NCBI GenBank assembly: GCA_018700525.1
Contig: JABITN010000260.1
Location: 1-32,374, forward strand
Direction of reading: 5' to 3'
Length of the DNA stretch: 32,374 nt
Source of the DNA: Opitutales bacterium
Lineage (GTDB): Bacteria; Verrucomicrobiota; Verrucomicrobiia; Opitutales; Opitutaceae
The translations under genes were made by a program, and so were the position numbers. How positions within the stretch are numbered: position 1 is the stretch's first letter; the number at the start of each line of letters is the position of its first letter. The notes below the pieces were generated by a model. That model was not told the DNA's origin and did no database searches. It worked only from the letters and a program-made list of their open reading frames with translations. Positions 735-28,583 of the stretch are shown here, piece after piece.

Positions 735-3599
735 TCAAACTTTTAACGCTTCAACGGCCCCTTCGACGATTAATCTAACCGAATCCAGTCGAAGACGCGC
801 CGCATCAATTGCCTCGACGATCCCTTTGATTTCCGCTTTCGCCAAGTCCACTTCCTCTTTTCGAACGTTCTCGTTGAGTTTCCGCAAATCAACTAATCGC
901 TGCAATTCTCCCCCTAATGCTGCTTTCATCTCCAACTTCGCGGATTGCCTCATCTTATTAGACTCGGCCAAAGCGATCGCTTCCGCTCCATCTAGCATCG
1001 CTGCAAAGATATCCCGCGTGAAACCCGGATTTTCCAAAAAGCGATTCAAGGAGCCGTCTTCAAGTTCAGTCTGTTCCCAAGCAGGATCATGTTCGTGGGT
1101 AAGATCGTTGCCTCGAATATCCACCAAAGCCCTCAAGGGTGTAGGAGCCATAAAGCGATCCACATGCAAACTCGACTGCGCAACCGTCTCCATCACGAAA
1201 ATCGCCTCCAGCAGAATATTTTGTTCCTCCGCATCCTTAATACTGAAAGCCGACTTCCCGACTTCCGAGTTAACCAGAAAGGCCATCGATTCCAAAACCA
1301 ACGGATGATCCTGCGAAACGAAACCGATATCCTCTCGAGCAATTGCCCGCTCCCGATCGAAGGTCGCCAACATTCCTTCATGAGGAATATGCGGAAACGA
1401 TTCTACATAAGCATGGCGAGGATCCAAAAAGACATCGCCACCTTCATGTTCCTCTATTCGCACTCCATAGTGCTCCAGCAATCCAAATACCGATTTTCGG
1501 ATACTATCGTCTTTTTCAATATGCCGAATCCCCTGGACCACTTGATTCGCCACCTGTGCATCAAAAGAATTCAATTCTAGCAATCGATCACGGCCATGAC
1601 GCAATTTTTCCGTAAGCTTTTCCCGAAAACCGATCGTCTCTTCCACGAACACTTCGAGCGATTCCCGGCCATGCCCCTTCTCTCCCCGCCCATAGCCCAA
1701 TGCGGATTTCAACAAGCGATCCCCGAAGGCCTCCCGATATTCCACCGCTCCGTGAGCGCAGACTTCGAAAGCATCCAAGCCTTGATGGTACCAATCCGCC
1801 ACAAATTCCTGAGAACTACCCACCACGTAAGGCACATGCACCTGAACTGTAGCCGTTTGCCCAATACGATCCAAGCGGCCGATACGTTGCTCCAGGAGCC
1901 CCGGATTCGACGGCAGATCAAATAGAACTAAGTGGTGAGCAAACTGGAAATTACGCCCCTCACTCCCAATTTCCGAGCAAATCAAAATCCTAGCCCCCTC
2001 CGGCTCCGCGAACCAAGCCGCATTTCGATCCCGTTGCACCAACGGCAAATCTTCGTGAAAGAGACCAACCTTCACATTCATCTTTTCCTTCAAAGCCGAT
2101 TCGATCGCTAAAGCTTTGCGCTTCGACTTGCAGATCAAAAGCATTTTGGAATCCCGCTTGCCCTTCAGAAACGAAACAAGCCAATCCAAACGTGCGTCCT
2201 CTTTAAACGAATACCGAATATCGCTCTCTTCACCCCGATATTCCGCTTCGAACTCTCTTGCCAAACGATTGAGGAGAGCCTTCGAATCTTCCCCCGCATT
2301 CAAAGGAGCGGGACAATACATACGCTTGGGGAAACCCGTCATATTCGCCCTGGAGTTCCTGAAGACAACCCGTCCCGTCCCATGCTCATCCAAAAGTGCC
2401 CTTAGCAAAACGTCCTTCCCACCGCGTTTTCCCTTTTCAAAATCCGCCAATCGCTTTTCGAGCCCAGTCAAATCCTTATCGAAGATCAACTTCAACGCTT
2501 CGTGATCCGATGACGAGAGCCCCTCCTCATCGACGATTTTCCCAGCGATCCTAGCCACCGACTCGAAACCCTCCGACTCGGCTTGAAACCCTTCGAAATC
2601 GCTGTAGCGGTTCGGGTCGAGCAAGCGCAATCGAGCAAAGTGCCCCTCAAGTCCCAATTGCGTCGGTGTCGCCGTCAGTAAAAGCAATCCGGGACTCTTC
2701 TGCCCAAGGGCCTCCACCAATTCATACTCGGAACTCGATTTCTCAGGCGTCCATTCAAGGTGATGCGCCTCGTCCACCACGACCAAATCCCATCCCGCCT
2801 CGATCGCCTGTTCAGACCTGACTTCGCTGTTCGCCAGAAAATCGACACTGCACAAAATCATTTGCCCATCCAAAAATGGATTTTCGCCTGGGCTGCTCTT
2901 TTCCGCCGCCCGGCAACGCCCTTCGTCATAAATACTGAACCAAAGATTAAATCGGCGCAGCAGTTCCACGAACCATTGATGCACCAAGCTCTCCGGAACC
3001 AAAATCAAGATACGTTCCGCTTTCCCCACGGCCCTCAATCGCTGCAGAATCAAACACGCCTCGATTGTCTTGCCCAAGCCAACCTCATCCGAAAGCAACA
3101 CCCTGGGCGATTGCCGCGACGACACCTCATGCAAGATATACATCTGATGAGGAATCAAATCGACTCGTCCACCGGTGAAGCCCCTCATTGGGGATCGTCT
3201 CAATTCGCTTTGAGTCCTCAAGGTTTTGTAACGCAAATCGAATACCTCGCCTGGATCCGACCGTCCCCCCAGCAAGCGATCGTGCGGCGAGCTAAAGCTC
3301 GTCGAATCGGATAAAACATCTTCGCAAAAAGACAGGTCTTCGCCGCTGTAATACAACAGCCCCTCGCGCTCCTCGACTTGATCGACCTTGAACGATTCGC
3401 CTTCCCGATTGGATACTTTTTCGCCCACCCGAAAACGTGCCCGTTTCAAGACAATCGTATCCGAAGCGTATAGCCGCTCTTCGCCCGAAGCTAGAAATCG
3501 AATTCCAACCTGAAAACTTCCTACGCTTACAACCGTTCCCAAGCCCAACTCGGGCTCGGGTTCGCTAATATATCTTTGTCCCGCGACAAATCCTGCCAT
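735..3599 (-). CDS. rapA: RapA-type SWI2/SNF2 ATPase, RNA polymerase-associated
   Basis: RapA (HepA) is a Swi2/Snf2 ATPase that binds RNA polymerase and helps recycle it after transcription. The protein is 954 aa, against about 968 in E. coli. Its start GQRYISEPEPELGLGTV closely parallels the RapA N-terminal Tudor-like region, which supports this ATG. The helicase core begins near residue 150 (LIPHQMYILHEV) with Walker A DEVGLGKT near 175 and the DEAH box (VVVDEAHHLEW) near 275. The second RecA lobe carries LICSEIGSEGRNFQFAHHLV and the arginine-finger motif RIGRLDRIGQ. The C-terminal part is the long RapA-specific region. The start codon abuts the 3' end of a dead ECF sigma relic; no promoter is obvious. 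It is followed by its own terminator. The assignment is strong, and alternatives within SNF2 lack the N-terminal signature. Confidence 0.93.
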   Translation of the reverse strand: MAGFVAGQRYISEPEPELGLGTVVSVGSFQVGIRFLASGEERLYASDTIVLKRARFRVGEKVSNREGESFKVDQVEEREGLLYYSGEDLSFCEDVLSDSTSFSSPHDRLLGGRSDPGEVFDLRYKTLRTQSELRRSPMRGFTGGRVDLIPHQMYILHEVSSRQSPRVLLSDEVGLGKTIEACLILQRLRAVGKAERILILVPESLVHQWFVELLRRFNLWFSIYDEGRCRAAEKSSPGENPFLDGQMILCSVDFLANSEVRSEQAIEAGWDLVVVDEAHHLEWTPEKSSSEYELVEALGQKSPGLLLLTATPTQLGLEGHFARLRLLDPNRYSDFEGFQAESEGFESVARIAGKIVDEEGLSSSDHEALKLIFDKDLTGLEKRLADFEKGKRGGKDVLLRALLDEHGTGRVVFRNSRANMTGFPKRMYCPAPLNAGEDSKALLNRLAREFEAEYRGEESDIRYSFKEDARLDWLVSFLKGKRDSKMLLICKSKRKALAIESALKEKMNVKVGLFHEDLPLVQRDRNAAWFAEPEGARILICSEIGSEGRNFQFAHHLVLFDLPSNPGLLEQRIGRLDRIGQTATVQVHVPYVVGSSQEFVADWYHQGLDAFEVCAHGAVEYREAFGDRLLKSALGYGRGEKGHGRESLEVFVEETIGFREKLTEKLRHGRDRLLELNSFDAQVANQVVQGIRHIEKDDSIRKSVFGLLEHYGVRIEEHEGGDVFLDPRHAYVESFPHIPHEGMLATFDRERAIAREDIGFVSQDHPLVLESMAFLVNSEVGKSAFSIKDAEEQNILLEAIFVMETVAQSSLHVDRFMAPTPLRALVDIRGNDLTHEHDPAWEQTELEDGSLNRFLENPGFTRDIFAAMLDGAEAIALAESNKMRQSAKLEMKAALGGELQRLVDLRKLNENVRKEEVDLAKAEIKGIVEAIDAARLRLDSVRLIVEGAVEALKV

Positions 3600-3655
3600 A
3601 AATCACGCAAAAAACACAGAATCCGCCAAGAACCAATTAAAAAATCGATCCCCAG

Positions 3656-3895
3656 CCGCCAACGTCTACGGTGGCGAGTCAAGTGGTTCAGGCATAGATT
3701 ACGCGTGACGGTCTTAAGCCAACCGCCAACCCGAGGGTTTCCGCCTATCTCGCTATACCGATCATACGCCTTCAAAAAGACCTCTTGGGAAATATCCTGC
3801 ACTTCCGCGTGATTCGCCAATAGTCGATATGCCGTTGAAAATACCATGTTCTAATAGCTTTGCATGAAGGATTCGAAGCTTTGGGATTCTGTCAT
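3656..3895 (-). pseudogene. ECF-type sigma factor relic, amber stop at codon 15 and region 4 missing
   Basis: Read from an ATG at 3895 the frame gives MTESQSFESFMQSY, then a TAG at 3851-3853, then NMVFSTAYRLLANHAEVQD followed by ISQEVFLKAYDRYSEIG and WLKTVTRNLCLNHLTRHRRR. This is the sigma-70 region 2 of an ECF sigma factor: DISQEVF is the core-binding segment and WLKTVTRNLCLNHL is region 2.4. The amber replaces what should be a glutamine or similar residue (one base from CAG). After about residue 80 the homology stops, and region 4 is absent because the rapA gene begins there. A shorter ORF could initiate at the ATG of MVFSTAY, but it would encode a sigma factor lacking its N-terminus and the -35-binding domain. 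I read it as a decayed gene. Confidence 0.8.
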
Positions 3896-4023
3896 TTGCG
3901 ATTGCAACCGTTATGGCCGGGCTTCCGTCTAACCACAGAACACAAGTCCGCGTGATAAAGTCGCACAAAATCTACAAATCGTTTCAAAAGCTGCCCGAAA
4001 CTCAGCTACTTTTGGAAACGACC

Positions 4024-5019
4024 TCATAAAACAAAGGGGAATTTCGGTTCTGGAGTTAAGCGATCAGTCTGATAATTCCAAAACCACATGCGATTCTCAG
4101 TCAACTGAACGCCGCCAATCCAACGCTCTTGAAAACCGACCTGGCCCCAATGCCCCTCGGCTTTCAAAACCTGTTCTCCACAAAGCGTTAAAGCCAAAGC
4201 CTGCTCCTCAAACGCCTTCCATGCCAAATCTCTTGGCGGACATAGGAAAGGTTCGCCGCTCACAGTTTCGATCAACGGAGATTTTCCCGAAGTTATCCGC
4301 TGCAAAACCGCCCAAAATTCCCAGTAGTTCAAAAAAGGAGCCGATTCGGTTTCCCGACAGCTCTCGAACAGTTCCCGCGGAGCTGTTACGCCCAGCGAAA
4401 TTGCATCGAGAATTTGGCATTCCGTTAGCGAAAGGCCATTCTCGGAACTTGGATACTCTCGCAAAAGGCGTCCCACAGCTGCCTTGAGGGAAACCGACTT
4501 GATAGTTTGAAAACTCGCTTCCAAATCAGTCGGATCGTCAGATACAAATGCCGTCCACATAGATTCATATTCGGCAAGGTTCGTCTCTCCTGCAGGTTCA
4601 GCGTGGTCGATTAATTCCCAAAGAGCATCGCTCGAATCATTAGGGATCATCTTATTTGATACCGAAACCTTGACGCAATTCAGTCGCTCGCTCGCCTGAT
4701 TCATCAACCACGCCGCCAATCGAGCCAGCGTTAGCTGATCCCGAATTCCAGCTCCGAAAAGCAAAACGACTTCCTCGCCATCTCCAAGCCCCCGGAGTAA
4801 TGCATCGTTTCGGGCCTTAAAATCTGCTTCCACCTCCTGGCATTCATCCCAGCCGTGATACTGAAAAACCAACGCCCGGTCCCGAGCGAACGTCGACAAA
4901 TCATAGGTCTTCCCTACCGGCCCAACATGCAAAGCCTCCGACCAAGCCCAAAGATCGAACTTACGGCCCGCTAATGCCAAAGCGTTTTCGGAAACTTCAT
5001 CATTAGTAATTAAAATCAT
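4024..5019 (-). CDS. DUF1835 domain-containing protein
   Basis: A cytoplasmic protein of unknown function, about 331 aa from the chosen start. The N-terminus MILITNDEVSENALALAGR, with WSEALHVGPVG and the later DQLTLARLAAWL, is the DUF1835 pattern (typically ITNGDSAA...W.D.LHEGPV...). The end RWIGGVQLTENRMWFWNYQ matches the companion C-terminal region seen in full-length members. An upstream in-frame ATG at 5151 would add 44 arginine- and serine-rich residues with no family resemblance, so I start at 5019. It is flanked by relic genes on both sides and may be the only intact gene in that stretch. The family has no established biochemical role. The bases between it and the HDOD relic (5020-5289) hold nothing I recognise. 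Confidence 0.72.
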   Translation of the reverse strand: MILITNDEVSENALALAGRKFDLWAWSEALHVGPVGKTYDLSTFARDRALVFQYHGWDECQEVEADFKARNDALLRGLGDGEEVVLLFGAGIRDQLTLARLAAWLMNQASERLNCVKVSVSNKMIPNDSSDALWELIDHAEPAGETNLAEYESMWTAFVSDDPTDLEASFQTIKSVSLKAAVGRLLREYPSSENGLSLTECQILDAISLGVTAPRELFESCRETESAPFLNYWEFWAVLQRITSGKSPLIETVSGEPFLCPPRDLAWKAFEEQALALTLCGEQVLKAEGHWGQVGFQERWIGGVQLTENRMWFWNYQTDRLTPEPKFPFVL

Positions 5020-20164: not shown

Positions 20165-20872
20165 CTATCGCTTCACGCATTCGATTCGCAGCGTTTTCCA
20201 GCTTAGTTCGAATCGATTTTTAAAACGCAGATCGCAGTCGTTCAAAAAACGCCTCAACTCGCCCGTGCTCATCCGCCGTTCCCCCACCGCCCCAACATCA
20301 TGAATCGCTCGCAACGCCTCTCGGGAGGAAGCGTATGAGATAATATCGTCTCGTGCTTCGTTTCTCGAAATTTCAAACCCCGCATCTCGAAAAAACCCAA
20401 GCCATTCCGCTTCGCTCCTCCATACAAGAGCCGAGAAATCAGGACGTTCCTTTACGAATTCACCCAGCGAACCCGCAACGAATAAACACACTAAAACACG
20501 CCCTTCAGGCTCCAACGCGTTCCTCCAATTTTCCAATATTGCTGCCGGATTAAGCGCCCACTGAAGCAAACTGCTCGCATATATCCTATCAACCAGAAAC
20601 GTTTCGCACCGCCAAGCATCCAGCACATGCCATTCCACCATCGGTAGACGTTTTTTCCCCTCTTCAAGCATACGCTTGGACTGATCCGTCGCCAGCAAAG
20701 ACTTGAAGCCTCTCAACGCCAAATGCTTGGTGAACAACCCCGTACCCGCTCCCAGCTCTAGAGCACGCAGACCGCCGCAATCGCACTCGATCCACTCCGA
20801 AGACCAATCAGCCACGACCTTCTGAATATCAGCTTTCTCATGATAAACTGACGCTTTTCGATTAAACCTCAT
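20165..20872 (-). CDS. bioC: Malonyl-ACP O-methyltransferase BioC
   Basis: BioC methylates malonyl-ACP so that fatty acid enzymes can build the pimeloyl moiety of biotin. The 235-aa protein opens with MRFNRKASVYHEKADIQK, as BioC proteins do, and has the SAM-binding LRALELGAGTGLFTKHLALR near residue 36, followed by a D at the end of the second strand. It also has YASSLLQWALNPAAILENWR with the LQW motif and LEPEGRVLVCLFVAGSL. It overlaps the esterase gene by 4 bases (ATGA) and is the last gene of the bio operon. The placement next to an esterase that frees the pimeloyl group strengthens the call. Confidence 0.92.
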   Translation of the reverse strand: MRFNRKASVYHEKADIQKVVADWSSEWIECDCGGLRALELGAGTGLFTKHLALRGFKSLLATDQSKRMLEEGKKRLPMVEWHVLDAWRCETFLVDRIYASSLLQWALNPAAILENWRNALEPEGRVLVCLFVAGSLGEFVKERPDFSALVWRSEAEWLGFFRDAGFEISRNEARDDIISYASSREALRAIHDVGAVGERRMSTGELRRFLNDCDLRFKNRFELSWKTLRIECVKR

Positions 20873-21474
20873 AGACTCGTTAATCCCCCCTCAAGCAATT
20901 CCCTCAAATCGTGCCCGGTTCCTTCGATGACACGAATACCTGGATACGTATTCTCAAAATAATACGTATCCAATAACGCATCCTCTGATCCGAAATAGCA
21001 TTCGAATCGTCCAGCAGTTCCCAGTTCCACCGATTCTGTCATCAAGTATTCAATACCCCATTTCAACTCAACCGCTGAAAACCTATAACACTCGCTCATC
21101 GTTTCAGAAATTCCCGCTCGTTCTCGAAAATCGGTAACTGCAGCACAGGAATCCCGATCCAACCATTTCAACAAGTACGAAAGTTGTCCTCTCTTCACCT
21201 TTCCGCCGCGATCCGATTCGCTTCGAAAATCTTCGAATGGCGCCAACAATATCGTTCGCTTGGCTTTGTCGCAAAGATCCAGTCGCCCCATCAGTAAAAA
21301 CGCACCCAGCGAATATCCAATCAAAACGTCGACCCCATCGATCTCTTCCAGAACTCGAGCCCAACCAGGAACGGAAGCCACCGCTAGATGCTCATGTTCC
21401 GGAAAACGCTTGGTCACCAAGGACAACAAAGGTCCTTCCTCTAAACTCCAACCATTGATCCACACCACTCGCAT
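20869..21474 (-). CDS. Alpha/beta hydrolase, predicted pimeloyl-ACP methyl ester esterase
   Basis: Predicted to remove the methyl group from pimeloyl-ACP methyl ester and end the BioC-initiated pathway. The 201-aa protein has an alpha/beta-hydrolase plan: WINGWSLEEGPLL at the start, the nucleophile elbow GYSLGA (Ser near 75), an acid in GSEDALLD and a histidine in GTGHDLRELL. It is shorter than E. coli BioH (about 256 aa), and the elbow is GYSLG, not GWSLGG. Bacteria use several unrelated esterases at this step (BioH, BioG, BioJ, BioK and others), so it could be BioG-like or a new type. Position between bioF and bioC is the main functional evidence. It overlaps bioC by 4 bases. Confidence 0.75.
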   Translation of the reverse strand: MRVVWINGWSLEEGPLLSLVTKRFPEHEHLAVASVPGWARVLEEIDGVDVLIGYSLGAFLLMGRLDLCDKAKRTILLAPFEDFRSESDRGGKVKRGQLSYLLKWLDRDSCAAVTDFRERAGISETMSECYRFSAVELKWGIEYLMTESVELGTAGRFECYFGSEDALLDTYYFENTYPGIRVIEGTGHDLRELLEGGLTSL

Positions 21475-24265: not shown

Positions 24266-25654
24266 TCAATTACTAATTTTCTTCAATACCGCGGAGAGAG
24301 CGGTTTTTAGGTTTTCAAATAAAAAGTCTATTTCTTCAGAACTAATCACCAATGGAGGAACAATCAGAATGGAGTCCATCAATGGGCGTAAAAGCAATCC
24401 CTGTTTACGAGCTTCGACGCAAACCTGCATACCGACGCGTTCGTCAATCGGCCAGGCCTCTCGCCCTTCCCCTGGGCAAAGGTCAATCGCAGCCGCCAAT
24501 CCTCTTTGCCGCATCTCGTCAACATTCGGATGTCCGCGAAACGCCTCTTCGAAACGCTCGCCAAAATAGGCGATTGTTTCTTTCAAACGCTTCGAGTCTA
24601 TCAAACGCTCCAATTTCTCGATACTTTTTAACGCCACGCAAGCAGCCAACGGATTTCCCGTAAATGTGTGGCCATGGAAGAAACCTCTTCCCGATTCGAA
24701 GGAACCCAGAAAAGCTTGATACACGGACTCGCTCGTCAACGTCGCCGCCAACGGCAAGTAACCCGCGGTCAATCCTTTGGCCAAGCACAAGAAATCCGGT
24801 TCGATCGACTCCGTATCGCAAGCAAGCATTGAACCTGTTCGGCCACAACCGACGAAAACTTCATCCAATATCAAATGCACCTCGAAACGACGGCATAAAG
24901 CTTCGACCTCCTTCAAAAAACCTTTCGGCTGCAAACGCATCCCAGCCGGTCCCTGAATAGACGGCTCGAGGATCAATGCCGCAATGCACGTTCCTTCAGT
25001 TTCGAGCAAAATCTTCAATTCCGACAAGCTTTTCTCCGTATCCGCGCTAAACTCTTGGCCATTCACCTCGTCACAAGCTGGTGACGAAAAAACCCGAGAT
25101 TCAAACAACCAGGGATCGAAGCGTCCATGAAACCCTCCGCTATCCCCCGCCGCCATCGCTCCAAACGTGTCGCCATGATAGCCGTCTTGCATCCCAACAA
25201 CGAGACGCTTCTCGGGTTTTTCTCGCAACTGCCAATACTGAAAAGACAGCTTTAAAGCGATCTCCACCGCATTCGATCCGTTGTCGCTGAAAATCGCCCG
25301 GCTCAGAACGCCCGGCACCATATCTGCCAATTTTTTGCCCAATGCCGCCCCAAGAGGATGACTCAATCCCAAGTACGTTGAGTGAGCAATTTTATCGATC
25401 TGGACCTTCAACGCCGCATTAATCTCTGGGTCGTTATGCCCGTGAGCGTTCGTCCAAATCGAAGCATTCGCATCCAAGTAACGATTGCCCTCAGTATCCC
25501 AAACCCAGCACCCTTCTCCCCGCTCGACATGCAGTTGAGGCAAAGCAGCGTACTCCTTCATCTGAGTGAATGGGTGCCACGAATGCTTCCTATCCCACTG
25601 GTCCAAAGTGGTTTTCGAGTTTTCACATACAATATCTATCGAGGCAATCGCCAT
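24266..25654 (-). CDS. bioA: Adenosylmethionine--8-amino-7-oxononanoate aminotransferase
   Basis: BioA converts KAPA to DAPA using SAM as amino donor and PLP. The 462-aa protein has RKHSWHPFTQMKEYAALPQL, a BioA marker, YLDANASIWTNAHGHNDPEI, FSDNGSNAVEIALKLSFQYW, DGYHGDTFGAMAAGD, LILDEVFVGCGRTGSMLAC with the PLP-binding aspartate, and the PLP lysine in LCLAKGLTAGYLPLAATL. It is the first gene of a six-gene minus-strand operon with gaps of 2 to 7 bases or short overlaps. Its ATG has AAAGG at a fair distance and lies 10 bases from the BirA-type operator. Length and motifs are standard. Confidence 0.96.
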   Translation of the reverse strand: MAIASIDIVCENSKTTLDQWDRKHSWHPFTQMKEYAALPQLHVERGEGCWVWDTEGNRYLDANASIWTNAHGHNDPEINAALKVQIDKIAHSTYLGLSHPLGAALGKKLADMVPGVLSRAIFSDNGSNAVEIALKLSFQYWQLREKPEKRLVVGMQDGYHGDTFGAMAAGDSGGFHGRFDPWLFESRVFSSPACDEVNGQEFSADTEKSLSELKILLETEGTCIAALILEPSIQGPAGMRLQPKGFLKEVEALCRRFEVHLILDEVFVGCGRTGSMLACDTESIEPDFLCLAKGLTAGYLPLAATLTSESVYQAFLGSFESGRGFFHGHTFTGNPLAACVALKSIEKLERLIDSKRLKETIAYFGERFEEAFRGHPNVDEMRQRGLAAAIDLCPGEGREAWPIDERVGMQVCVEARKQGLLLRPLMDSILIVPPLVISSEEIDFLFENLKTALSAVLKKISN

Positions 25655-25663
25655 TTCTGGCCT

Positions 25664-25704
25664 TTGTTAAGGCATATTCCCGCCTCCTTAACAAGCTTGT
25701 TAAG
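25664..25704 (-). promoter_or_regulatory. BirA-type biotin operator, with an extra half site
   Basis: TTGTTAAG-N15-CTTAACAA at 25664-25694 has the arrangement of the known BirA operators (half sites of the TTGTTAAC/GTTAACAA kind with 14-16 bases between). The second half also forms a perfect 18-bp palindrome, CTTAACAAGCTTGTTAAG, at 25687-25704, so three half sites are present. A promoter overlapping it is likely, for example TTAACA then GAATAT on the minus strand 18 bases apart. It is 10 bases upstream of the bioA ATG. A BirA repressor with an N-terminal helix-turn-helix should be encoded elsewhere. Confidence 0.82.
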
Positions 25705-25760
25705 TACTCTCTCACACCGGAAAACAGGACCTGATCGTACTCTATGAAATCAATGACCGA

Positions 25761-26249
25761 TCAACGATCCGAATTCCAGAGCCCTTCAATCAGGCTCAGT
25801 AATTGCTCACCATGATTCGCCGGGTCCACTTTCTCGCAAATTGCCAATACGTTTCCATCTCTATCAATCGCATAAGCCGATCGGCTCGGGCCTACGTAGG
25901 CCCGTCCGTAAAGCTTTTTTTCGACTAGGGAGTCGGTCGCCCGAGCAAAGCCATAATCAGGATCCGATACTAGAGGAAATTCGATTTCATGCTTCGCCGC
26001 ATATTTCAGGTGGGAGCCAACCGTATCTCTGCTCACACCCAAAACGGCAAAATGTTTGGCCCGAATCGCATCGTAAGCAGTAACTAGGCTGATCATCTGC
26101 TTGTCGCAACTACTCGTATTATTGCGCATGTAGACGGATACGAGCGTCGGTCCCTCGATCAAGTCGTTAAAAACACGGGCCGTTTTCTTGCCATCAATTC
26201 CCACCTTCACTTCGAAATTCAAGTCTAGGCTATCTCCTAAGCAAATCAT
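25761..26249 (-). CDS. Peroxiredoxin (AhpC/TSA family, Bcp-like)
   Basis: A 162-aa thioredoxin-fold peroxidase. It has the first helix region VSVYMRNNTSSCDKQMISLV with the peroxidatic cysteine in the T-x-x-C form; the usual proline three residues ahead of the threonine is missing. Then come AVLGVSRDTVGSHLKYAAKH, FPLVSDPDYGFARATDSLV and AYAIDRDGNVLAICEKVDP. No resolving cysteine in the Bcp position is apparent; another cysteine occurs near the end (ICEK) and one near the start (MICLG). No signal peptide, so it is cytoplasmic. The start ATG overlaps the stop of the membrane-protein gene by 4 bases (ATGA), so translation is probably coupled. Confidence 0.83.
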   Translation of the reverse strand: MICLGDSLDLNFEVKVGIDGKKTARVFNDLIEGPTLVSVYMRNNTSSCDKQMISLVTAYDAIRAKHFAVLGVSRDTVGSHLKYAAKHEIEFPLVSDPDYGFARATDSLVEKKLYGRAYVGPSRSAYAIDRDGNVLAICEKVDPANHGEQLLSLIEGLWNSDR

Positions 26250-26677
26250 GATTCTCTCTTTCTATCGGCTTTACGTTCGCAAATTACCGCCACCCATAAT
26301 CCTCCCAACATCAATACATCCCGCGAAATCGGCCAAAGAAAACCCGTTTCCGAAGCTTTCGCCTCGGATCCAAAACAACCGCAATCCACATCAAGTCCCC
26401 TCAATGCCGCTTGAACCAATAGCATCAAAAACACTACGGTCATGCCACCGGCTAACCATCGAGCGCCGCCTCTCAAAAATCCCGTTACGAACGAAAATCC
26501 GACGCACAATTCCAGGTAAGGCACGAACAGAGACGCTGCAACTGCGAGCACATATCCGAAAACTTCATAGGTCAGGATCGATGATAAAAACGCAGACGGA
26601 TCGATCAGCTTGGCCACGCCAGCCCATCCAAACGTCACCCCTAAGGCGATGTACACGATTCTAGCGAGCATCTTCAT
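26246..26677 (-). CDS. DoxX/MauE-like four-helix membrane protein
   Basis: A 143-aa integral membrane protein. Helices lie at roughly 4-24 (ARIVYIALGVTFGWAGVAKL), 34-65 in two segments, 70-90 (WLAGGMTVVFLMLLVQAALR) and 112-132. Between the third and last helices is DVDCGCFGSEA, the cysteine motif of MauE/DoxX-type proteins, which are linked to thiol-disulfide handling in the membrane. MauE itself supports disulfide formation in methylamine dehydrogenase, but no mau genes are here. The start ATG at 26677 overlaps the rhodanese stop by 4 bases. A longer frame upstream has no family resemblance and overlaps the rhodanese gene. A redox carrier between rhodanese and peroxiredoxin is inferred. Confidence 0.78.
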   Translation of the reverse strand: MKMLARIVYIALGVTFGWAGVAKLIDPSAFLSSILTYEVFGYVLAVAASLFVPYLELCVGFSFVTGFLRGGARWLAGGMTVVFLMLLVQAALRGLDVDCGCFGSEAKASETGFLWPISRDVLMLGGLWVAVICERKADRKRES

Positions 26678-27120
26678 TCGTCTCCCTCCTTTGCTAATCC
26701 GGTTTCGAGAAGCGTTTCCCAACCTCCTTTGAGAGCGAATATATCTTCGACTCCAAGTTCCTCGCGTAGCCGTTTCGCCACTTCGTGCGACCGCATGCAC
26801 GATTGGCTTGAACAGTAAACCACGGTCGTCGCGCTGGGAGACCAACGATCTAGAAAATCAACCAGCAATTCCTCCCAACGTTCTTCGTTCAGCAAAATCG
26901 CTCCCTCAAAATGCCCTATAGCGAAGTCCTCGTCAGAACGAGCATCAATCCAAAACACTTCCGCTTCAGATTGAACCTCCTCGATGTTGATCGACAATTC
27001 GTCTATCCCAAACGATGGTGCCAGCGGGTGCGTAAAATAAGCTAATCCACCGCAAACCAACGCAATGAGGATCAATGCAAACGCCTCTTGAACCGATTTC
27101 ATAGCCGCGTCACTAGGCAA
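26674..27120 (-). CDS. Membrane-anchored rhodanese-domain protein
   Basis: A 148-aa protein with an N-terminal membrane anchor (AFALILIALVCGGLAYFTHP) followed by a single rhodanese domain: FWIDARSDEDFAIGHFEGAI, LLNEERW, and the active-site loop VVYCSSQSCMRS with the persulfide-forming cysteine, then AKRLREELGVEDIFALKGGW. The domain would face the periplasm. Rhodaneses carry sulfane sulfur or sense persulfides. It is the first of three translationally coupled genes (next: membrane protein with DCGCFG, then peroxiredoxin). M7 at 27102 is an alternative start. No promoter stands out; a minus-strand terminator of the Hpt gene lies ahead at 27173-27201. Confidence 0.87.
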   Translation of the reverse strand: MPSDAAMKSVQEAFALILIALVCGGLAYFTHPLAPSFGIDELSINIEEVQSEAEVFWIDARSDEDFAIGHFEGAILLNEERWEELLVDFLDRWSPSATTVVYCSSQSCMRSHEVAKRLREELGVEDIFALKGGWETLLETGLAKEGDE

Positions 27121-27172
27121 GTCCTAGAAACTTGCCAAGCCGCAATCCAAGATTGCACGCTAAAAGATCACT

Positions 27173-27201
27173 CAAAAACCGCCCTTATGTTTGGGCGGTT
27201 T
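27173..27201 (-). terminator. Rho-independent terminator of the HDOD-Hpt operon
   Basis: On the minus strand a 9-bp stem AAACCGCCC/GGGCGGTTT with an 8-base loop is followed by TTTTTGAG (one T pairs). It is 12 bases after the Hpt stop. Read on the plus strand the run after the stem is GTTTG, weaker. Confidence 0.85.
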
Positions 27202-27212
27202 GTTTGCGTTCC

Positions 27213-27581
27213 TTAGTTTCTCAAGCCGTCGTACTTCGCTTCCACTTCTTTAATCGAAGCGAAAAAGTCTACTTCAGCCTGAGTCAGAGACGTTTGATAC
27301 GCTTCTGGCGAGATCGTCTCGATATTATCTTCGATATTCGCCAGCGAAGTGGCGACCCGCGTAAATCCAAAGTTGCTCGAAGAGCCTTTTAAGCGATGCG
27401 ATTCCCGGGCAATCGTTTCCCGGTTAGAGTCGAAAACCGTACCCTTTAGCGTAACCAAGCGATCACGGCCGTCTTCGATGAACTCGCGAAACAAGTCTCC
27501 CATTTCTTCATCGAATTCCTCCTCTTCTTCGCCGAAGATCATTTCAAGTTGTTCCCAATCGATAAGTTCTGAGTCACGCAT
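27213..27581 (-). CDS. Histidine phosphotransfer (Hpt) domain protein
   Basis: A stand-alone Hpt protein of 122 aa that relays phosphate between histidine kinases and response regulators. After a very acidic stretch (EEEEEFDEEMGDLFREF) comes RESHRLKGSSSNFGFTRVAT with the phospho-accepting histidine at residue 62 and the family's HxLKG form. It is encoded 39 bases after the HDOD gene and should be cotranscribed. No hybrid kinase or partner regulator gene is next to it. The acidic insertion near the start is unusual but does not affect the active helix. Confidence 0.9.
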   Translation of the reverse strand: MRDSELIDWEQLEMIFGEEEEEFDEEMGDLFREFIEDGRDRLVTLKGTVFDSNRETIARESHRLKGSSSNFGFTRVATSLANIEDNIETISPEAYQTSLTQAEVDFFASIKEVEAKYDGLRN

Positions 27582-27620
27582 TTGTCAAATTGCTCCTGTT
27601 AGAATTAGTGTGAGTTAGAT

Positions 27621-28583
27621 TTAAGTTCGGATGGCGCTTTCGCCGTATCCAAGATTCGATGCGATAGCCTTTTTCAGCTTGTCCTTCACGACACCGCTTC
27701 CCGAAACCTCGATCGGTCGGTGAGCTGCCTTGCCAGTAACCAGGCTTTCCGCCTTTTCGAAATTCGCTCGTAGCTGATCGACAACCTTAAGGTATTCTTC
27801 CTTCGAAAGATGCAGCAAAGCGATGAGCAAAGGATCCGATCCTGGAGCAGCCACGGTATTTGCAGGATCGTTGATAATGGTGCTAATCATTCTCTTGGCG
27901 AATGAAACCAAACACGTCATGCGCTCATGCTTTCCGGCTTGCGAAGGTTCGAATTGGTTGAGGACAGGTACAACGACCTCGTCGGAGAATCCCCATTCGC
28001 GCATCATGGCAGCCCCAAATTTAGCATGGTTTATTCCGAAAATTTCCATCTCTTCTTTCTCCAAAGCCACGTCTTCCGGTAGCGAAGCATTGAAAGCGAT
28101 ATTCGGAGCGTCCTTGATCTCTCGTTCAAGAAAAACCATCCCGATCCCATGGAGCAACCCAACGGTATAGGCTACGCCAGGATCTTCGCTGTACTTTCGA
28201 GCCAAACGCTCCATCGCGAATGCGCAGGCAACCGAACGTTTCCAAAAATCGCCCGCACTGATCCCGTATGTCTTCAACGGCTCGGCAAAGAGCTCGGAGA
28301 ACGTCAGCATCGTAACGATCTGATACACGTCGCTGAAACCCAAATGCATAATGCCATCGTCAATGCTATCGATATGATAGCCCGGATTGAAATACGCACT
28401 GTTGGCCGTTTTAAGAATCATCGCGCTCAACGCCGGATCCATTCGAATCATATCCCGAATCTCGTCGGGGTTCGTATTGCAATCCGATATTAGCTTCTGG
28501 AGCTTCGGCAAAATTTGCGGAGAGACGGCAATGCCATCCAGTTCAGGTTGGATATCTTCGAGGTTGATTGGGTGAGAGATCAT
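27621..28583 (-). CDS. HDOD-domain signalling protein
   Basis: A 320-aa protein dominated by an HDOD domain (about 15-220), related to HD phosphohydrolases but lacking catalytic residues. The N-terminal IAVSPQILPKLQKLISDCN, then MIRMDPALSAMILKTANSAY, DGIMHLGFSDVYQIVTMLTF, FWKRSVACAFAMERLARKY and TVGLLHGIGMVFLEREI follow the family pattern, where the HD pair is replaced by LLHGIG. The C-terminal 100 residues are less conserved. HDOD proteins sit in signalling networks, often with phosphorelay partners, in agreement with the Hpt gene next door. A dead HDOD gene at 5290-5745 shows there was another copy type. Confidence 0.9.
   Translation of the reverse strand: MISHPINLEDIQPELDGIAVSPQILPKLQKLISDCNTNPDEIRDMIRMDPALSAMILKTANSAYFNPGYHIDSIDDGIMHLGFSDVYQIVTMLTFSELFAEPLKTYGISAGDFWKRSVACAFAMERLARKYSEDPGVAYTVGLLHGIGMVFLEREIKDAPNIAFNASLPEDVALEKEEMEIFGINHAKFGAAMMREWGFSDEVVVPVLNQFEPSQAGKHERMTCLVSFAKRMISTIINDPANTVAAPGSDPLLIALLHLSKEEYLKVVDQLRANFEKAESLVTGKAAHRPIEVSGSGVVKDKLKKAIASNLGYGESAIRT

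Follow-up and report, generated by a model that had tools for sequence, protein, structure and literature searches.

Three genes follow one another on the minus strand of the window (the whole stretch of 32,374 nucleotides of Opitutales DNA analysed here), transcribed in the order rhodanese, MauE-family membrane protein, peroxiredoxin, with a four-base overlap at both junctions (Table 1). The first-pass annotation had described such an overlapping set, made of a membrane-anchored periplasmic rhodanese with an active cysteine, a four-helix membrane protein with DCGCFG, and a peroxiredoxin lacking a clear resolving cysteine. This description of the parts was borne out, with the sides of the membrane resting on the anchor and on charge patterns. 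All three proteins exceed the curated Pfam cut-offs of their families, with 47.4 bits against 22.2 for the rhodanese (PF00581) and 77.7 bits against 27 for the membrane protein (PF07291). Identity to the nearest relative reaches 80% for the rhodanese, 85% for MauE and 83% for the peroxiredoxin, so that the trio consists of real protein genes. The closest named record, L003 from an Opitutaceae MAG, is 85% identical in MauE. Hydrophobic regions number one in the rhodanese (residues about 5-31), several in MauE and none in the peroxiredoxin. For the rhodanese, TTG 27120 and ATG 27102 are both possible start codons, no clear ribosome-binding site being visible at either, while the start of MauE, placed at 26845 by the open reading frame lister, is set by aligned relatives preferably at ATG 26677. 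The three genes are presumably transcribed together. No sigma-70-like promoter was found in 25500-27700. Upstream of the set, a hairpin followed on the minus strand by a short T-run is perhaps a terminator separating the trio from the Hpt gene; terminator-like sites are not in excess in the trio region (3, versus 2.2 in shuffles).

Table 1. Genes, gene junctions and upstream hairpin of the locus, in window coordinates.
Feature	Position	Strand	Basis
Anchored single-domain rhodanese	26674..27120	-	Pfam Rhodanese 2.7e-12; alignment A3; hydrophobic region
MauE-family four-helix membrane protein with DCGCFG	26246..26677	-	Pfam MauE 1.3e-21; alignment A2; helical model
Cytoplasmic PrxQ/BCP-fold peroxiredoxin	25761..26249	-	Pfam AhpC-TSA 1.7e-19; alignments; model
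ATGA overlap, rhodanese stop / MauE start	26674..26677	-	Sequence
ATGA overlap, MauE stop / peroxiredoxin start	26246..26249	-	Sequence
9-pair GC-rich hairpin between upstream Hpt gene and rhodanese	27176..27201		Scored on + strand

A profile scan of ten flanking genes identified Hpt and HDOD genes upstream of the trio, two M16 peptidases and six genes of a biotin region. The latter lie downstream, as Aminotran_3, radical SAM/BATS, AAA_26, class I/II aminotransferase, an unmatched protein and a methyltransferase, an order which we read as the bioA, bioB, bioD and bioF positions, the unmatched protein, then the bioC position. The protein between the bioF-like and bioC-like genes (20869-21474, 201 residues) has no Pfam match at E ≤1e-5, and the position of its gene suggests a pimeloyl-ACP esterase of unlisted type. 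The proximity of these genes raises the possibility that the rhodanese serves as sulfane sulfur donor for biotin synthase, whose gene lies a short way downstream: in the window and in 8 of the 9 genus stretches compared, the trio is followed on its own strand by bioA-like and bioB-like genes. Yet the rhodanese domain is predicted to lie outside the cytoplasm and biotin synthase inside, one genus stretch (L118) lacks bio genes, and only L123, among 11 family stretches outside the genus, has them beside the pair. This highly improbable role was rejected on that last account, bio genes being seldom found beside the pair once the genus is left. More generally, the flanking genes are syntenic across the genus and part of the family, an equal-length stretch from genome G193 (L113) having the same gene order as the window. 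Because the neighbourhood is largely syntenic within the family, co-location there adds little to the case for a functional association.

More telling is what happens at larger distances. A first survey used peptide patterns of the window MauE as its query, rhodanese neighbours not being selected for; its 112 loci and the window, minus five duplicates and one weak paralogue, make 107 sources. Judging by record titles, most of these belong to Opitutales, Aminicenantes/Acidobacteria or Desulfobacterota, other groups contributing single records. A rhodanese gene adjoins MauE on the same strand in 99 of these 107. Among the eight others, MauE sits at a contig start in L005, and the contig ends within about 165 bases in L036, L070 and L040 (in L040 the upstream side of MauE is visible, and carries no rhodanese), while in L034, L052, L069 and L109 the rhodanese is missing beside MauE as far as the data go. 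In Opitutales and Aminicenantes the rhodanese comes first, upstream of MauE, while in Desulfobacterota it mostly comes second; a pairing kept despite differing gene order and in distant phyla counts for the rhodanese-MauE pair. Closer to the window, a family survey matched MauE in 81 of 200 genomes, and at the best 30 of these 81 loci (10 from the genus and 20 further ones) a rhodanese adjoins MauE 29 times, L109 being the exception. In a class-level sample of 286 genomes, the MauE profile (A2, E ≤1e-6) matches 170 and the rhodanese profile (A3, E ≤1e-12) 202; for at least 92 of the 150 MauE matches listed, a rhodanese is also listed no more than 300 bases away, always upstream and in the same orientation, and 58 have no listed rhodanese neighbour. 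Within the window's own order, this neighbour is present for at least 28 of the 30 MauE matches listed and in 26 of the 26 genomes listed, G006 and G113 also having a MauE outside the matches listed. Twelve unpaired MauE loci, one of them repeating L159, showed no partner obvious by eye in their open reading frame listings.

Three unrelated genes might of course have come together by chance and been kept by local synteny, and the syntenic surroundings in the genus and part of the family, together with the separate occurrence of the peroxiredoxin, are what such a history would leave behind. We hold it to be quite improbable, as the adjacency of rhodanese and MauE holds in distant phyla where the other neighbours differ. 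Judged from these gene neighbourhoods, rhodanese and MauE are a real two-gene pair conserved across phyla, and the peroxiredoxin a lineage-specific third gene.

Several neighbourhoods display features of their own. In L073, MauE and rhodanese are apparently fused in one open frame of 340 codons (3411-4433). Nineteen loci from Desulfobacterota-type records have, next to the MauE-rhodanese pair, neighbours that fall into one cluster of 19, and the member that was scanned (L058 6162-6740) is a C_GCAxxG_C_C putative redox protein (PF09719); in its accessible part, a published account lists rhodanese and C_GCAxxG_C_C selenoproteins, and no MauE. Another cluster of MauE neighbours has five members, L103 (2333-3247), L104, L105 and L111 from the window's own family plus L079, the scanned one being a DUF1573 protein.

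The paired rhodanese is of an unusual kind. The catalytic loop of rhodaneses usually has six residues, in the form CxxGxR/S. This form is absent from the window protein, which has instead C103-SSQS-C108 (CX4C, within CSSQSCMRS), the second cysteine of which had gone unmentioned in the first-pass annotation. Residues D59, C103, C108, S111, A115 and G133 are invariant in the 15 rows of alignment A3. The residues between the two cysteines vary with lineage, CSSQSC being the version of the window, CEGGDC that of most Aminicenantes and CGFVKC that of most Desulfobacterota, and the spacing is kept. Of the 99 paired rhodaneses, L053 was left out of the count because its sequence ends before the loop, and CX4C is present in all 98 that can be read, in 95 by strict pattern and in three (L106, L048 and L049) by reading. 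Among 28 class-level loci (L133-L160, three of which repeat the first survey), 23 of 25 rhodanese frames have it, the two that break it being L153, with CX3C, and L146, with no cysteine in the loop. As a control, PF00581 matches were collected in six genomes (n=43), of which 30 loci were read, giving 33 aligned domains. The rhodanese profile A3, itself built from paired sequences, also aligned the unpaired ones. All five domains that neighbour a MauE gene carry CX4C, as against one of 28 unpaired ones (L199); four of the unpaired domains have CX5C (CTGGIRC) and the rest lack the second loop cysteine, some lacking the first too, while CxxGxR/S is seen in many control rows. A hydrophobic stretch precedes the rhodanese domain in 99 of 99 paired frames, a count in which a few over-long frames and the L073 fusion include upstream residues. 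This anchor, together with the charge pattern, predicts that the rhodanese domain lies outside the cytoplasm.

Its partner belongs to the MauE family, and no other Pfam family was found for this protein at E ≤0.1, DoxX, DsbB and VKOR all being absent. In the 15 rows of alignment A2, F16, K23, P27, F30, P53, E56, F83 and CGCFG are invariant. Over the 107 sources, the same positions are kept, in that order, in 103, 105, 100, 105, 100, 107, 107 and 107 sequences, the invariance of CGCFG being partly selected, as the first-survey query included DVDCGCFG. No cysteine beyond those of CGC is conserved in these 107 sequences, window C58 and C133 not being kept. The motif might have been a signature of pairing with rhodanese, an idea that was ruled out, for unpaired MauE proteins carry CGC too: CxC is present in 40 of 40 MauE loci checked, 14 distinct ones of which have no rhodanese frame found, and also in the eight first-survey loci without a paired rhodanese, though not in the weak paralogue L002. 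By these comparisons, CxC is a hallmark of the MauE family. The distribution of charges predicts that both termini and the loop between the second and third membrane segments (with R69 and R73) lie inside, which would place CGCFG outside, where the rhodanese domain is predicted too.

An AlphaFold model of MauE, with a mean pLDDT of 83.4, consists of four long helices and a short one, residues 103-111 after CGCFG being uncertain. A profile search of PDB sequences turned up no solved relative, and Foldseek no clear one (best E 0.21). In structural alignments, which covered the Foldseek candidates only, NACHO/TMEM35A stood first (VIA-align Z 13.7, rmsd 2.0 over 116 aligned residues, the next row at 10.1), a scale on which helical models reach 14 without a clear match; the likeness is suggestive only. 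It would presumably connect MauE to the DoxX-like family.

A helix bundle in the membrane carrying an outer pair of cysteines invites comparison with the enzymes that make disulfides. DsbB and VKOR are small helical membrane proteins with periplasmic cysteines, and MauE with its two-cysteine rhodanese could replace DsbB (or VKOR) and DsbA, as a quinone-linked oxidase forming periplasmic disulfides. In accord with this, the DsbB and VKOR profiles each match none of 11 genus genomes, all 11 of which match DsbD_TM, and in the class sample DsbB is found in 2 and VKOR in 39 of 286 genomes, two sets that do not overlap and leave 245 of 286 matching neither by the profiles used. We consider this oxidase unlikely nonetheless. 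Whereas DsbB has two cysteine pairs, MauE keeps one; when the MauE model is aligned, VKOR rows reach Z values of 5.5-6.3 only, among unrelated bundles; and MauE is present in 21 of 39 VKOR genomes as against 149 of 247 others (p 0.48). This lack of anticorrelation rules out MauE as a simple stand-in for VKOR. A broader version, where MauE and the two-cysteine rhodanese would be an unrecognised and widespread machine forming disulfides or persulfides in the envelope, rhodanese replacing the thioredoxin fold, in Verrucomicrobiota that match neither DsbB nor VKOR, strikes us as doubtful.

The third protein has the fold of PrxQ/BCP: its model (pLDDT 93.4) finds Xanthomonas PrxQ 5iow as its best PDB match (E 3.9e-14, TM 0.82/0.85), and it keeps T45, C48 and R123, the Thr, Cys and Arg being active-site residues of that family. 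It differs from it in having Met for the Pro of PxxxTxxC, and MxxxTxxC is found in 20 of 20 linked rows as well as in 16 of 16 unlinked members (L165-L180). One-cysteine PrxQ proteins exist. Here, Cys 48 is the sole cysteine common to all 20 aligned rows, the window included; position 77 or 85 is a cysteine in some relatives, and no resolving cysteine is conserved. The subfamily forms a clade with 100/100 support, on a long branch from ten ordinary PrxQ rows, and its linked members are compatible with a single origin of the linkage. Matches above 185 bits occur in 20 genomes of the class sample, all from the window's own order, the next match falling to 110.9 bits. As the window's own genome has 16 AhpC-TSA matches, the peroxiredoxin of the trio is not its sole peroxiredoxin-like protein.

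This peroxiredoxin bears on an earlier suggestion, made in the first-pass annotation, that the three proteins could act as one relay, moving thiol, disulfide or persulfide equivalents from one side of the membrane to the other, between the periplasmic rhodanese and the cytoplasmic peroxiredoxin. The overlap of the genes speaks for such a relay, as does a peroxiredoxin which, having no conserved resolving cysteine, needs an outside thiol, and the compatibility of linked peroxiredoxins with one origin of the linkage agrees with it. The trio is conserved outside this genome, the peroxiredoxin following MauE in 10 of 10 genus loci (the eleventh genus genome, G456, being left out of this count) and in 8 of 20 further family loci, among the best 30 of 81. 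The crossing of the membrane itself was not supported: MauE has no conserved cysteine besides CGC, hence none on the inner face to use. Only 4 of the 20 class-sample peroxiredoxins are linked to MauE, all in the window's genus; around the other 16, neither MauE nor rhodanese was found up to 1.5 kb away in either direction. MauE has no match in 9 of the 20 genomes and lies elsewhere in 7. The neighbours of these 16 form no cluster beyond 7 loci within 1.5 kb, except for the gene itself. Co-occurrence in 30 family genomes is weak (both genes in 10, MauE only in 5, peroxiredoxin only in 4, neither in 11; Fisher p 0.066). The relay, which we regard as unlikely, was dropped as the best reading for these reasons, with CGC alone conserved in MauE and the peroxiredoxin often elsewhere. 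Thus, of the proposal that the trio forms a unit, the rhodanese-MauE part stands across phyla, and the inclusion of the peroxiredoxin, mostly unlinked outside the genus in the class sample, does not. The peroxiredoxin is most likely a co-expressed peroxide scavenger, not a relay partner.

What remains at the core is a putative two-protein periplasmic couple, in which the CX4C of the rhodanese would exchange thiol or persulfide redox equivalents with the CGC of MauE, the latter passing electrons to or from the membrane, a scheme that we put at about even between right and wrong. The anchored rhodanese would take up or release sulfane sulfur, or a disulfide, at C103-X4-C108; the CGC of MauE, predicted to face the same side, would swap thiol, disulfide or persulfide with it; and MauE would hand electrons to, or receive them from, a partner in the membrane, perhaps a quinone. 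In the lineage of the window, a PrxQ-like one-cysteine peroxidase may then have joined the overlapping set. If the thiol/persulfide couple is real, the MauE family, on which few papers were found in the open-access literature and which sequence searching connected with no solved relative, gains a definite partner, and cysteines open to testing, in several phyla. The pair would also bear on the handling of disulfides outside the cytoplasm in Verrucomicrobiota, most of which, in the sample, have no DsbB or VKOR match. The peroxiredoxin adds a minor point, representing a PrxQ subfamily that was met only in the window's own order and that has lost the proline of the usual motif.

The first-pass annotation knew of no described system with this set. 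This stands for the pair itself, as no description of it was found in the open-access literature, judged mostly by title, so that a rhodanese-MauE thiol/persulfide redox pair is apparently undescribed there. It does not extend to the general arrangement: according to the accessible parts of the reports, DoxX, the rhodanese-type SseA and SodA of Mycobacterium tuberculosis form a membrane-associated oxidoreductase complex said to aid thiol homeostasis (PMC10943396, PMC9227533, PMC8638967). As far as those parts describe it, that complex likewise combines a small membrane protein, a rhodanese-type thiol enzyme and an enzyme removing reactive oxygen species. By contrast, the membrane protein here is MauE by Pfam, not DoxX, the rhodanese is an anchored single-domain protein with CX4C, and a peroxiredoxin takes the place of superoxide dismutase. 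The trio is moreover one overlapping gene set, whereas the mycobacterial sodA, doxX and sseA genes reportedly do not form one operon. Since the parts differ by family, the trio is not filed as a member of that system, which appears to be the closest described analogue, alike in its logic to a trio known here from its genes. A second comparison is with BT_3928-type proteins (NCBIfam NF045576): the window MauE aligns to positions 3-111 of the 358-position model, but scores 37.2 bits against a cut-off of 250 and lacks the C-terminal domain. Finally, the family takes its name from methylamine utilisation, in which the membrane protein MauE goes with MauD, a membrane-anchored periplasmic thiol protein. 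Neither MauD nor methylamine dehydrogenase genes are among the ten flanking genes scanned. The likeness lies in a MauE-family membrane protein adjoining a membrane-anchored thiol protein predicted to be periplasmic, and the difference in the partner, a rhodanese in place of a thioredoxin fold. We propose that the pair follows the MauD/MauE plan, with the thioredoxin-like partner swapped for a rhodanese.
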